Assembly (NCBI RefSeq): GCF_013359725.1
Contig: NZ_JABFMW010000010.1
Location: 1 to 64,000, forward strand
From: Pseudarthrobacter sp. C4D7
Lineage (GTDB): Bacteria > Actinomycetota > Actinomycetes > Actinomycetales > Micrococcaceae
DNA: 64,000 bases
Reading direction: 5' to 3'
Shown here: positions 52,105-56,195 of the stretch, piece after piece
Position numbering within the stretch: the first letter of the stretch is position 1
Layout of the letters: every line of letters begins with the position of its first letter
Translations under genes and position numbers: made by a program
The notes under the pieces: generated by a model
What the model saw: only the letters and a program-made list of their open reading frames with translations
What the model was told of the DNA's origin: nothing
Databases searched by the model: none

Positions 52105-52145
52105 AAGGGTGCGGTGCCGGCAGTGGATGCCGGCACCGCACCCTT
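52105..52145. terminator. Bidirectional terminator
   Basis: Perfect 18-bp arms (AAGGGTGCGGTGCCGGCA and complement), 5-nt loop, between the GH55 stop and the convergent nickel transporter; it overlaps the transporter stop codon by 2 bp. Confidence 0.8.
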
Positions 52146-53184
52146 AGTTGTTCCGGGGCTGCCTCGAGGCCAGCGCTGCCCCGCCCCAGACGGCCAGCAG
52201 CAGCGCCACCAGCAGGAGGCCGGCCTCGCCCAGGTCGATCGAGGACAGCCATCCTGTCACCGGATCATCCAGGCTGAAGGCGGCATGGAAGAATCCGGCC
52301 AAGGTAATTCCGGCGATAAACAGGGCGGATATTGCCGATATGCCCGTCACCGCGGCGTTGAAGCCCAGCCTGCGCCGTGGGTCACCCAGCGCTGAGCGGT
52401 ACATCCGCATCATCGCCATGCCGTTGACCGAGTCGCACAGTGTCATGGCGGCAGCGAAGGCCAGCGGCAGAGCAAGCAGGGCCAGCGGATGCACCCCGCC
52501 CAGGGACGCCGCCGTCGTCATCATCAGCAGCCCAATGGTGGTGGCGGTATCGAACCCCAGCCCGAACAGGAAACCGATCACGTAGATGTTCCGTGGCCGG
52601 CGCACCCTGGCGAGGGGCCGTGCCAGGATCCGGGCCACCAGCCCCTGCGGTTCCAGGTCCCGGGGATCGATGGCGGCACCGTTCCGCGAGCGCCGTACCG
52701 CAGCAGCAGAGCGGGCGAAGGCCGAGCCGTTGAACAGCCCCATGGCCAGCAGGAACAGCCCGGACACTCCGCTGCCGATCAGCCCCAGCACCAGGTTGCC
52801 GGCCGTGCCGTCCTGCATCAGGCCACCCACGGCTGAGGCCCCGGCGATCACCAGCACCCCGGCCAGGGTCACCACCGAGCTGTGTCCCAGGCTGAACGCG
52901 AAGCCCACGCTGACGGGGTCTTGCTGCTGTGCCACGAACTTCCGGGTGGAGTTGTCGATCGCGGCCAGGTGGTCCCAGTCGTAGCTGTGCTTCACACCGG
53001 CCAGGTAAGCAGTGAGGACAAGTCCCCATGAGAGTGCCTGCGGTGCGGCGGCCCCCGTGTTTCCGGCCAGCAGGAGCACGACGGCGGCGGCATGCAGGGC
53101 GGCCACGGCACCGAAGGTGAACAGCGCCCGGGTCCGGAGCGGCAGTGATTCCCGGCCACGGTAGAGCGCCGCGATGCTGGTCAT
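52144..53184 (-). CDS. Nickel/cobalt transporter (NiCoT, HoxN/NixA type)
   Basis: 346 residues and eight or so spans. The signature H-x4-D-H appears as KHSYDWDHLAAIDN (about residue 65). LGHSSVV and GLGFDTATTIGLLMM are the second and third NiCoT motifs. It imports Ni2+ for the urease encoded next to it; the ATG at 53184 overlaps the ureD stop by one base (TGATG), so it is the last gene of the urease operon. Confidence 0.93.
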   Translation of the reverse strand: MTSIAALYRGRESLPLRTRALFTFGAVAALHAAAVVLLLAGNTGAAAPQALSWGLVLTAYLAGVKHSYDWDHLAAIDNSTRKFVAQQQDPVSVGFAFSLGHSSVVTLAGVLVIAGASAVGGLMQDGTAGNLVLGLIGSGVSGLFLLAMGLFNGSAFARSAAAVRRSRNGAAIDPRDLEPQGLVARILARPLARVRRPRNIYVIGFLFGLGFDTATTIGLLMMTTAASLGGVHPLALLALPLAFAAAMTLCDSVNGMAMMRMYRSALGDPRRRLGFNAAVTGISAISALFIAGITLAGFFHAAFSLDDPVTGWLSSIDLGEAGLLLVALLLAVWGGAALASRQPRNN

Positions 53185-54194
53185 CAGTGCTTCCTCAGGT
53201 CCAGGGCGCCCTGGCCGTGCCAGCGTCCGCGGAGCAGGTCCGTGCAGGACCGGAGCAGGCGGTTCAGCTGGTCCGTGCTGTTGGAGAGGCTCCGCAGCAC
53301 CAGCCCGGTGGTTCCCAGGACAGTGCGGGTCAGCGAGATGCCGGTCAGGACCTGGTGGCCGGCGGTCAGCAGGTGGAGTTCGTCGGCGAGCGCCTGGTCC
53401 ACCCGGGCGTCCACCACCACCAGCGATCCCAGGTGGCTGTACCCTTCCATGAACCCCATTCCGGTCACGTCGTGCAGCGGCGGCCGGATGAGCAGGTTGT
53501 CCACCGCCAGCAGCCCGGTGTCCGCCCCGGATTCCACGCGGATATCGTTGCGCAGCCGCACCTCCTCGTACCGGAAGCCGGCGCCGTCGGGCGACCAGCC
53601 GGGCGTCACCACTTCGGCCATGACCAGCGACGACGACGGCCGCAGGGTCACGGACATCCGCTGCCGGTAGCTGGCTTCCCGGTAGGCGATGAGCTGGTCC
53701 GGCATCAGTTCCAGCCGCGCCCCCTCCCCCAGGCGGACAGCCATCCGCTGCTCCGCAAAGGACCCGGGGGTCCGGTACACCTTCGTAGCGGACTGGGTAG
53801 TCAGCAGCAGGTCAGCCCCGTCCCCCACTTCAACATCGAGGACAAAGAGATCCGCCCCCAGATAAGCCCCGCCAGGATTCACGACGACATAACAAACCTG
53901 CCCGGAGTCATCAAGATAATGCGGCCGCATCACCCGAAGAGCGCCCTCATGGAACTGGTGCGAGGCAACCGAGCGGCCACCTCGCAAACTGACGCCCAAC
54001 TCAAGCCGCCCCATCGGTGACTTCTCAGCGCGAGCGGAGTCGGGGATAGGGGGCCGCGGCGTGGCGGGCCTCGTGGGGGGCCCACTGGCGCGAGGGCCCC
54101 GACCCGAGCTTGCGAGGGTTGGGAGCGCCTGGGGACGGGCACGGCCCCTTACATCCGGTGAAGCCGCCGGTGGCACTGCCGCCGTCGTACTCAT
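53184..54194 (-). CDS. ureD: Urease accessory protein UreD (with inserted N-terminal segment)
   Basis: 336 residues. From residue 61 on ([20 protein letters not shown], then [44 protein letters not shown]) it is a normal UreD, the scaffold for UreF/UreG on apo-urease. Residues 16-50 or so ([19 protein letters not shown]...) are Pro/Arg/Ser-rich and encoded by the 100-bp repeat copy at 54049-54148. The ATG at 54194 overlaps the ureG stop by 4 bp; an ATG at 54014 (MGRLEL) would omit the inserted part but has a poor ribosome site. Codon use changes abruptly inside the repeat. Confidence 0.9.
54049..54148. repeat. 100-bp GC-rich repeat, copy 1 (inside ureD)
   Basis: Identical base for base to 55547-55646. 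It lies within the ureD reading frame and is translated there. The flanks are only partly inverted (GGGGCCG / CGGCCCC at the ends). It contains the internal dyad GTGGG-GGG-CCCAC and an imperfect CCCGACCC / GGGTTGGG stem. Confidence 0.9.
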
Positions 54195-54805
54195 GCCAGG
54201 TCGAGCATCAGGACGTCGTGCCGGATCCATTCGATGACCTTCTCGAGGCCTTCGTCGGTTTTCAGGTTGGTGAAGCAGAACGGTTTGTTGCCGCGGAATT
54301 CCTTCGAATCCCGTTCCATGATGGCAAGGTCGGCGCCGACGTGGGGTGCCAGGTCGGTTTTGTTGATGATGAAGAGATCGGACTTGATCATGCCCTGGCC
54401 GGCCTTGCGCGGGATCTTCTCTCCCTGGGCCACGTCGATGATGTAGATGGAGAAGTCGACGAGTTCGGGGCTGAAGGTGGCGGAGAGGTTGTCGCCGCCG
54501 GATTCGACGAAGATGACCTGAAGGTCGGGGTGCCGTGCTTTGAGTTCCTCGATGGCGGCGGTGTTCATGGAGGTGTCTTCGCGGATGGCGGTGTGGGGGC
54601 AGCCGCCGGTCTCGACGCCGATGATCCGGTCCACGGGCAGGATGCCGTTGGCGGCGAGGATTTTGGCGTCCTCGATGGTGTAGATGTCGTTGGTGATGGC
54701 GGCCATGGAAATGCTGCCGCTCATGTGCCGGGTGAGCCGTTCCACGAGTTGGGTCTTGCCGGCGCCGACGGGCCCGCCGATGCCGATTTTGATGGGTTCA
54801 GTCAT
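54191..54805 (-). CDS. ureG: Urease accessory GTPase UreG
   Basis: 204 residues. The P-loop is GGPVGAGKT (residues 10-18), with [17 protein letters not shown] containing the CPH nickel-binding motif, [17 protein letters not shown], and the [12 protein letters not shown] guanine motif. It delivers Ni2+ to urease with GTP hydrolysis in the UreD-UreF-UreG complex. The ribosome site is GGAGG, and it lies 28 bp downstream of ureF. Confidence 0.96.
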
Positions 54806-54833
54806 GGTTTCCTCCTAAAGCAAATGAGCATGG

Positions 54834-55502
54834 TCAGCTCATGAACATCCGGGCACGCTGGCGTTCGTGCCGCATTTGCGAGATTTCCAGGCCGGGGCTG
54901 ACGGCGCCGAGGTCGTCGGGCGTGAGGTGGGCGATCGTGTCGATGGCGGCAGCGACGTCGTCGTGCGCTGTCCGGAGCACCCGCTGCCCGGCGTTCTGGC
55001 CGAGCGGGATGGCGCGGACGGCGTTCTGGGTCAGGGAGGTGACGGTGGCGAAGAGGTAGGCGGCGAGCGCCTCCTGCAGCGGGACGCCCAGGGAGCGGGC
55101 GACGACGGCGAACGCCAGCGGCTGGTGCCCGGCGGCGCGGCCGGTGGCCACCAGGTCGCGGTACAGTTCCAGCCCAGGCGAAGGAAATACCTCAGCCCCA
55201 ATCTCCAGCAGCCGAGACCCCATCTTCACGCTGGCCTCCCGAACCTGCCGCGGCAAAAGCGAGGCAGAGAGGAGAGCATCCAGCTCCCCCAGCTCACCAC
55301 CCTCATACAGCAGCCGAACAGCCAAGCCATCAGAGTAAGTCAAAGACTGCGAGATAAACGCGGAGAGCCAGCTTCCGAAGGACCCCTCATCAAAAACGAG
55401 CTCCCGGTCAAGGTACGCCTCAAACCCAAAAGAGTGAGCAAAAGCCCCAGTAGGAAGCGCAGAGTCAGTGAGCTGCTGAAGAGCAAGCTGGCAGCTGGTC
55501 AC
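54834..55502 (-). CDS. ureF: Urease accessory protein UreF
   Basis: 222 residues from the GTG at 55502 (VTSCQLALQQLTDSALPTGA), the natural UreF start; the longer frame runs back through the repeat copy and adds only Pro/Arg-rich sequence. The GFEAYLDRELV, DALLSASLLPRQVREAS and AYLFATVTSLTQNAVRAIPLGQ segments are the conserved all-helical UreF core. It forms the activation complex with UreD and UreG. It is separated from ureE by about 200 bp that contain the repeat. Confidence 0.93.
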   Translation of the reverse strand: MTSCQLALQQLTDSALPTGAFAHSFGFEAYLDRELVFDEGSFGSWLSAFISQSLTYSDGLAVRLLYEGGELGELDALLSASLLPRQVREASVKMGSRLLEIGAEVFPSPGLELYRDLVATGRAAGHQPLAFAVVARSLGVPLQEALAAYLFATVTSLTQNAVRAIPLGQNAGQRVLRTAHDDVAAAIDTIAHLTPDDLGAVSPGLEISQMRHERQRARMFMS

Positions 55503-55535
55503 TGCACCGCCGCCCAACGGGACGGAGCATCGCGA

Positions 55536-55658
55536 CGGCCCGGATTGGGGGCCGCGGCGTGGCGGGCCTCGTGGGGGGCCCACTGGCGCGAGGGCCCCGA
55601 CCCGAGCTTGCGAGGGTTGGGAGCGCCTGGGGACGGGCACGGCCCCCAATCCGGGCCG
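55536..55658. repeat. GC-rich repeat copy 2 with 19-bp terminal inverted repeats
   Basis: Between ureE and ureF. The central 100 bp (55547-55646) are identical to 54049-54148. Here the ends form perfect 19-bp inverted repeats (55536-55554 and 55640-55658; arm CGGCCCGGATTGGGGGCCG). It looks like an insertion-type or REP-like element, with no open frame of its own that resembles a transposase. Confidence 0.88.
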
Positions 55659-55709
55659 GCGCACCCAAGTGACACCACCCGTGGAGCGCGCAGCGCTGCG
55701 ACAGGGTTA

Positions 55710-56195
55710 CTAGTGCGAGTGTTCAGCATGGCGAAAAGGCACGGGCATGACGCGTTCCTGGCGGGTGTAGGGCACGGCGTTGTGGATGAGGTAGTCCTCG
55801 ACGGTGTGGTCGTAGGCGCACACCATGGCAGCCGCCCCGTACTCGCTGTCCGCGTCGAAGAATTGTGCCTGGAGGTGGCGGTTGCCCAGGGAGTGCGCGG
55901 TGACTCCCATGTCGTGGATGGTGCGGGGTGTGATGACCAGGACGTCGGTGGGGAGGACGGAGACCACGATCATGTTGGTGTCGGTGACGTGGAGGATGTC
56001 ACCGTCGCGGAGGTCGCCGGAGCCTGCGGGGAGGCGGATGCCGATCTCGTTGCCGTGGTCGGTGGTGGCCCGCTGGATGCGCTTGACCAGTGCGGCGCTG
56101 GGCAGGACGACTTTTTCGCGGTGGAGGCCGGAGTAGGCGGCGGGGTCAGTGCCCGGCAGGTCGTGGAGGTTGCCGAGAACTCGTTCGATGATCAC
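55710..56195 (-). CDS. ureE: Urease accessory protein UreE
   Basis: 161 residues. The N-terminal peptide-binding domain includes RVLGNLHDLPG and VVLPSAALVKRIQRATTDHG. The C-terminal metal-binding domain has LGNRHLQAQFFDADSEYGAAAMVCAYDHTVEDYL. The His tail is short (RHAEHSH), so it is a Ni2+ carrier with limited storage. It lies 17 bp after ureC. Confidence 0.95.
   Translation of the reverse strand: MIIERVLGNLHDLPGTDPAAYSGLHREKVVLPSAALVKRIQRATTDHGNEIGIRLPAGSGDLRDGDILHVTDTNMIVVSVLPTDVLVITPRTIHDMGVTAHSLGNRHLQAQFFDADSEYGAAAMVCAYDHTVEDYLIHNAVPYTRQERVMPVPFRHAEHSH

Follow-up and report, generated by a model that had tools for sequence, protein, structure and literature searches.

Several described families of short repeats bear a likeness to the element analyzed here. 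Rickettsia palindromic elements (RPEs) have been described in many unrelated genes, and the REP/RAYT family is defined by its RAYT transposase. According to one report, RPEs are about 150 bp long and lie mostly in frame inside genes (PMC10969869). MIRUs (mycobacterial interspersed repetitive units), as portrayed in a review, appear to be mobile and insert at start codons, where their ORF is coupled to the gene with a spacing of -4 nt, an arrangement that likely limits the damage (PMC12548453). A table row of a third study names an Arthrobacter among the genomes scanned for palindromes (PMC12306157). A search of the open-licence literature, judged by titles and the beginnings of abstracts, returned no paper that apparently describes the present element, which we file as neither a MIRU nor an RPE and which is closest in behavior to both.

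The element lies in the window, the whole stretch of 64,000 nucleotides from Pseudarthrobacter sp. C4D7 that was analyzed, within a urease operon on the minus strand in which the assignments of UreE, UreF, UreG, UreD and a NicO nickel transporter are backed by Pfam. The NicO-family gene (52144-53184, minus strand; Pfam 1.8e-52) is located directly downstream of ureD and fits a urease/nickel cluster. The features of the locus are as follows.

55710..56195, minus strand: ureE (Pfam UreE_N, 4.8e-18)
55499..55729, minus strand: leader ORF of 76 codons, with its ATG in the 3' end of ureE, running through copy 2 of the repeat; its TGA overlaps the GTG of ureF (GTGA)
54834..55502, minus strand: ureF (Pfam UreF, 1.6e-42), proposed start GTG at 55502
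54191..54805, minus strand: ureG (Pfam cobW/HypB/UreG, 3.3e-39)
53184..54194, minus strand: ureD (Pfam UreD, 4.8e-49, residues 103-308); its ATG at 54194 overlaps the ureG stop (ATGA)
54049..54148, minus strand: copy 1 of the 100-bp repeat, A with nested B, 97-nt core at 54051-54147, in the ureD frame
55547..55646, minus strand: copy 2 of the 100-bp repeat, 97-nt core at 55549-55645, in the ureE/ureF gap and within the leader ORF
55536..55554, plus strand: copy 2, left arm of the outer stem (19-bp inverted repeat), reaching 55532 with one mismatch
55640..55658, plus strand: copy 2, right arm of the outer stem (19-bp inverted repeat), extending to 55662
54078..54135, minus strand: B repeat within A of copy 1, match to a 58-position covariance model
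55576..55633, minus strand: B repeat within A of copy 2, covariance model match
54029..54050, plus strand: copy 1, outer arm on the 3' side in the mRNA sense, G003 type; identical to the ureG-ureD arm of relative G003 (locus L038)
54149..54170, plus strand: copy 1, outer arm on the 5' side in the mRNA sense, L043/L058 type; not complementary to the other arm

The initial annotation described two identical 100-bp repeats, one inside ureD and the other between ureE and ureF, the latter bounded by perfect 19-bp inverted repeats. Direct comparison bore this out: every letter of 54049-54148 matches 55547-55646, the 19-bp arms of copy 2 pair without mismatch, and the two copies fall within the ureD reading frame and the ureE-ureF gap, respectively. 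With looser bounds the repeat reaches 105 nt at 99% identity (54044-54148 and 55542-55646), and the arms of copy 2 stretch to 55532-55554 and 55640-55662 with 1 mismatch in 23. When 3 mismatches or fewer were allowed, a 28-nt stretch of the repeat matched the window at these two sites only, and none of 100 dinucleotide shuffles gave two matches to it; the repeat is therefore not a product of chance. The region holding copy 2 has a folding energy of -100.4 kcal/mol, whereas its shuffles average -76.1 (z -6.4); the excess stability is large on both strands, with z values of -6.4 and -6.0.

The repeat proved to be composite. A 40-nt palindrome, A, forms its centre, a dispersed repeat, B, is nested within A, and the whole is flanked by outer arms that differ among copies, each of the window copies having the order arm-A-B-A-arm. 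All 26 cores with A and B that were compared (AB cores) are 97 nt long, and B therefore adds 57 bp. At the urease sites of relatives the outer part is often found without B, i.e. as the 40-nt hairpin centre A. What had been taken for a single 123-bp unit is better described as an A centre with B nested in it, together making up the 100 bp, to which the 19-bp arms are added as variable outer modules. A covariance model of B matched this genome at least 13 times, with two of the matches falling within the urease copies and one being weak (E 0.008). This is a lower bound since 150 of 8396 first-look candidates were scored; copy numbers from the genome searches are in general lower bounds, as each scored part of its first-look candidates. 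Identity with a known structured RNA was considered and dropped, because nothing in Rfam reached the gathering score either for window positions 53900-55900 or for six loci.

Beyond the window, a 136-bp query run against 39 genomes matched the genome of origin and 23 of 24 others of the same genus, and none of 14 from other genera. The exact A pattern was present in 73 copies on 63 stretches of the GTDB species set, in records titled Arthrobacter, Pseudarthrobacter or Paenarthrobacter only. Urease junctions accounted for 63 of the 73 copies (33 at ureG-ureD, 30 at ureE-ureF); the others were at dnaJ (7), at dodecin (2) and, in L164, between a GNAT gene and a GntP permease (1). As the pattern was drawn from urease copies, diverged relatives such as A' at grpE-dnaJ are under-counted. 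When up to 3 mismatches were allowed, 56 copies of A were found in 35 of 61 genomes of the genus (52 with 0 mismatches, 2 with 1 and 2 with 2), with 0-3 A-only copies per genome, and the reversed control pattern had no match in these 61 genomes. Among 197 genomes of the family, nine matched the relaxed pattern, three of this genus and six of others; one of the six, G144, holds exact A and A', and the remaining five matched at 2-3 mismatches. Because G144 carries another genus code, A is not strictly confined to one. In the same genome (C7:43611-43927; loci L258 and L262) A' and an inverted copy of A lie about 280 bp apart. Inspection by eye of 19 loci from other genera (L215 and L217-L234) revealed no A at the urease junctions where these were printed (the ureE-ureF junctions of L224 and L225 excepted), and a B-like stretch at ureG-ureD of L221.

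Presence at the two urease junctions is frequent without being universal. In loci picked by ureG alone, the element occupies 32 of 48 ureE-ureF and 36 of 52 ureG-ureD junctions and is absent from 15 and 16, respectively, five abutting ureE-ureF junctions being excluded. Loci L122-L184 were fetched for holding A, which inflates presence, and counts were hence split by locus origin. The earlier suggestion of a repeat that reaches beyond this window stands, since further copies, whose absence was to count against it, are common in relatives. The same distribution bears on the idea that the pair arose by local duplication of ureD sequence, or by chance. In its favor, the two urease copies are the only full-length (AB) ones found in this genome, six more matches covering the middle part only; against it, copies stand at orthologous junctions in dozens of other species, a relative carries an A-only hairpin with the same ureE-ureF arms, and the nested B has its 13 matches here. 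The copies in relatives already refute this explanation, and we give it practically no weight.

Related palindromes were also seen at other sites. In L164 (95-670; the same place in L114) A coincides with the beginning of an ORF for a GNAT acetyltransferase, the listed ATG of which is inside the element; this element adjoins the divergent GntP permease gene and is a candidate further translated copy. The grpE-dnaJ spacers of L185-L214 contain modular palindromes that are swapped between species and have variable arms that look complementary; they include A, A' and a longer type, GGGGCCCCGCCCC, whose inner hairpin varies, as well as B within this longer type and others. Sites of these kinds, with A absent or alongside, also hold a different repeat that resembles GGTGGTCGAGCTTGTCGAGACC and has a GATTTCGACAAGCTCAATCACC-like arm; it was seen at the ure junctions of L057, L085, L086 and L060 and the dnaJ spacers of L200, L205, L206, L210 and L211.

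Reading frames were compared over 55 loci of the genus found by UreG and named loci found by A. Five of the first 55 loci (L042, L053, L071, L076 and L083) were dropped at ureE-ureF, where the alignments abut or overlap, and other rows were dropped because a gene was missing from the locus, was aligned only far inside, or the junction sequence was a duplicate. At ureG-ureD, the element is present in 58 junctions, 16 of them with A inverted, and absent from 17. The distance from the ureG stop to the ureD core is 2 mod 3 in 54 of the 58 element-bearing junctions (the exceptions being L072, L082, L161 and L175) and in 17 of the 17 element-less ones. The ureD frame is open in all 58 element-bearing junctions, and the ureD start overlaps the ureG stop (xTGA) in 49 of them and in every element-less junction (17/17). 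Frame is kept in 34/36 ureG-chosen and 20/22 A-chosen loci, and in 30/34 distinct junction lengths; as related species are not independent, binomial figures overstate the evidence, and counting by distinct length is fairer, being a rough protection against scoring kin more than once. Two side observations concern this part of the operon: in L040, L049 and L078 the ureG-ureD junction shows apparent palindrome deletions with one arm remaining, and in G044 (L091) ureG comes in two overlapping pieces (116773-117075 and 117063-117368), possibly through a frameshift or an assembly error.

In the window, copy 1 sits in an N-terminal extension of ureD, from 54194 to about 54017, ahead of the conserved UreD domain. 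A palindrome carried in frame within a coding gene, here in the ureD N-terminus, is a trait of RPEs. The element differs from them in that exact A is found mainly at two junctions of one operon, with orientations and frames differing by site; a spread over many unrelated genes was not seen, although the tally, with 63 of 73 exact copies at urease, used a urease-derived pattern only.

At ureE-ureF, 51 junctions carry the element, one carries half of it and 18 carry none. An ATG located 17 nt ahead of the ureE stop is found in 69 of the 70 junctions (ACG in L075), and in 14 of the 18 element-less junctions the frame from that ATG continues straight into ureF. Because this ATG lies within ureE codons, its conservation may be due in part to UreE and does not by itself prove that the ATG is used. 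The distance from the ureE stop to the ureF core is 0 mod 3 in 48 of the 51 element-bearing junctions. Likewise in 48 of 51 the leader frame crosses the element and terminates at a stop that shares bases with a start codon of the ureF frame; in two it is fused with ureF, and in one it misses. The 48 overlaps comprise 25 GTGA, 13 ATGA and 6 TTGA (44 xTGA) and 4 TAGTG, and each of the overlapping starts is at most 14 nt from the aligned ureF core. The coupling frame is broken in L174, and L078 and L081 have ATGA coupling without the element, which could perhaps be deletion scars. By origin, 31/32 ureG-chosen and 17/19 A-chosen loci are in frame, and by distinct junction lengths 22/25. As a control, 21 grpE-dnaJ spacers of at least 100 nt split 7, 11 and 3 over the three frames; for this control, distances were entered by hand, the longest upstream ORF was taken to end at the grpE stop, and palindromes were judged by eye.

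Open frames alone are weak evidence, because most frames through the GC-rich element are without stops. Translation of ureF in its own frame through the element was also considered and dropped, as in-frame stops occur at many junctions (TGATAG arms); the leader frame fits. The leader ORF itself had no match in Pfam. The remark that no coding content explains the repeat is probably wrong, given that frame is kept through the element at both urease sites; for copy 2 it is doubtful because this copy lies inside a 76-codon ORF that ends on the ureF start codon. Judged from these frames, both urease sites appear to be translated through the element. A free-standing terminator was set aside as a reading because the hairpin is located within sequence that seems to be translated.

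The -4 nt coupling to the downstream gene, found at ureF in 44 of the 51 element-bearing junctions, is where the element resembles MIRUs. That trait is not seen at ureG-ureD, where the frame is fused, and the element differs further in having a long palindrome, swappable arms, a nested second repeat and a leader that begins 17 nt inside ureE. Exact A matched no mycobacterial record in the GTDB species set, and the likeness is one of description, not of sequence comparison.

We consider it probable, at roughly 0.6, that nested palindromic repeats of the Arthrobacter group persist in translated junctions of the urease operon and are exchanged as cassettes by recombination. At ureG-ureD the element would lengthen UreD in frame. 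At ureE-ureF it would have split ureF, so that the old ATG now opens a leader ORF through the hairpin, and the leader would hand ribosomes to a new ureF start via the stop/start overlap, mostly xTGA at -4 nt. The elements would be tolerated because ribosomes read through them, presumably with no benefit to the host, and cassettes may pass between the two sites and between strains by recombining over the conserved centre.

Centre and arms change at very different rates. In 38 ureE-ureF junctions with A alone, the per-site difference is 0.038 in A versus 0.245 at ureG third positions, and it is 0.400 in the 12-nt arms, yet the arms are paired. Over ten arm positions, pairing at ureE-ureF was 0.957 (47 copies) against at most 0.734 in 1000 re-pairings; it was 0.798 at ureG-ureD (57 copies) and 0.878 over all 127 copies, against a maximum of 0.623 in the re-pairings in both cases. 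The count is ungapped and misses arms offset by one base, which probably lowers the ureG-ureD value. The near-invariance of A could reflect selection for function, and together with the pairing of the fast arms and the occupation of the same two junctions in many species it speaks for selection having maintained a functional RNA or a device for translation coupling. Such a hairpin would tune UreF and UreD relative to UreE and UreG, with ureF reached only by ribosomes that unfold it. We regard such a device as unlikely: A also occurs at dnaJ, dodecin and one more place, it is inverted in 16 of the 58 element-bearing ureG-ureD junctions, many junctions do without the element (15/48 and 16/52 in the ureG-chosen loci), and Rfam gave no match at the gathering level. 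Moreover, the arms outpace silent sites while remaining paired, which agrees better with cassettes being exchanged whole than with slow compensation.

Cassette exchange, as supposed in the preferred reading, is consistent with the distribution of stem types. On a ureG tree of 52 rows the stem type at ureE-ureF changes at least 18 times, a raw count taken without a shuffled-label control, the A/AB/none state at ureE-ureF changes 14 times and the orientation at ureG-ureD 7 times; the tree is weak, with 3 of 49 inner branches starred. A few arm types recur in scattered rows of the tree, and 3 of 34 stem modules are common to both urease sites. In the window itself, the arms of copy 1 are no longer complementary and form no outer stem because they belong to two different stem types, i.e. 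copy 1 is chimeric.

The identity of the two window copies can be viewed in the same light. Their cores are identical to each other and to the ureG-ureD core of G003, a close relative with a UreG 99% identical to that of the window (0/97 differences), and the next nearest core differs at 4 positions. In three other genomes with two AB cores, these differ by 7, 8 and 17. At ureE-ureF, G003 has A alone, and so does G007 (L045), whose arms are the same as those of the window. The proposal in the initial annotation of recent copying or gene conversion thus gains support from window cores that match each other and G003, and from the same arms enclosing only A in G007. On the simplest reading, the AB core of ureG-ureD was recently copied into an A hairpin at ureE-ureF, which would account for the 100-bp identity; the direction of copying is judged from few genomes. 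Shared cores and the hybrid arms of copy 1 point to recombination over the shared centre, and we infer this as the mechanism of exchange.

Transposition offers another account of how the element came to its sites. A non-autonomous element of the MITE kind, actively transposing and moved in trans by some transposase, would agree with the several chromosomal sites, with both orientations at ureG-ureD and with stem modules common to different sites; like MITEs in general, the element is short, has inverted repeats and lacks a transposase gene of its own. It appears to differ from them in having no constant terminal inverted repeat, the arms differing between copies, and A-only copies number just 0-3 per genome. 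No Y1 transposase, the one type searched for, was found in 60 of the 61 genomes, and much of the observed change is exchange at old sites. The element had no match in phages, and exact A none in viral contigs, where the pattern would miss an A with B inside; among plasmids, one Arthrobacter record held a B-like stretch covering 43% of the query. On these matches, a phage, viral-contig or plasmid origin was dropped, and we hold active transposition of such an element to be quite improbable.

A REP-like nature, as first proposed, is not borne out if meant in the RAYT sense. The resemblance to REP/BIME repeats lies in GC-rich hairpins and in a dispersed B, with at least 13 model matches here. The difference is that this genome has no RAYT-type transposase and that A is infrequent and situated in sequence that appears to be translated. 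The Y1 (RAYT) transposase PF01797 was detected in 1 of the 61 genomes of the genus and not in this one, with the control matched in 5 of 14, and membership of the REP/RAYT family was rejected on the absence of a Y1 transposase from this genome.

The preferred reading, persistence in translated junctions with exchange of cassettes, provides a comparison, drawn from dozens of species and from two junctions within a single operon, of the ways a repeat can become established in coding junctions and persist there. Two modes of survival would be represented, an in-frame protein extension at one site and a gene split into a coupled leader and a restart at the other, and the overlap of leader and ureF suggests the true ureF start in these genomes. 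A frozen centre with fast yet paired arms is unusual and makes the spread of a repeat without a transposase testable. A further-reaching and rather unlikely interpretation would have the frozen 40-nt centre act as a hot spot of recombination, or as a site for site-specific exchange, at which an alphabet of stem arms is shuffled between operon junctions and species while the operon keeps the palindrome translated. If this were true, the repeat would spread by cassette exchange without a transposase of its own, and the translational coupling of the urease maturation proteins would be rewired in the process.
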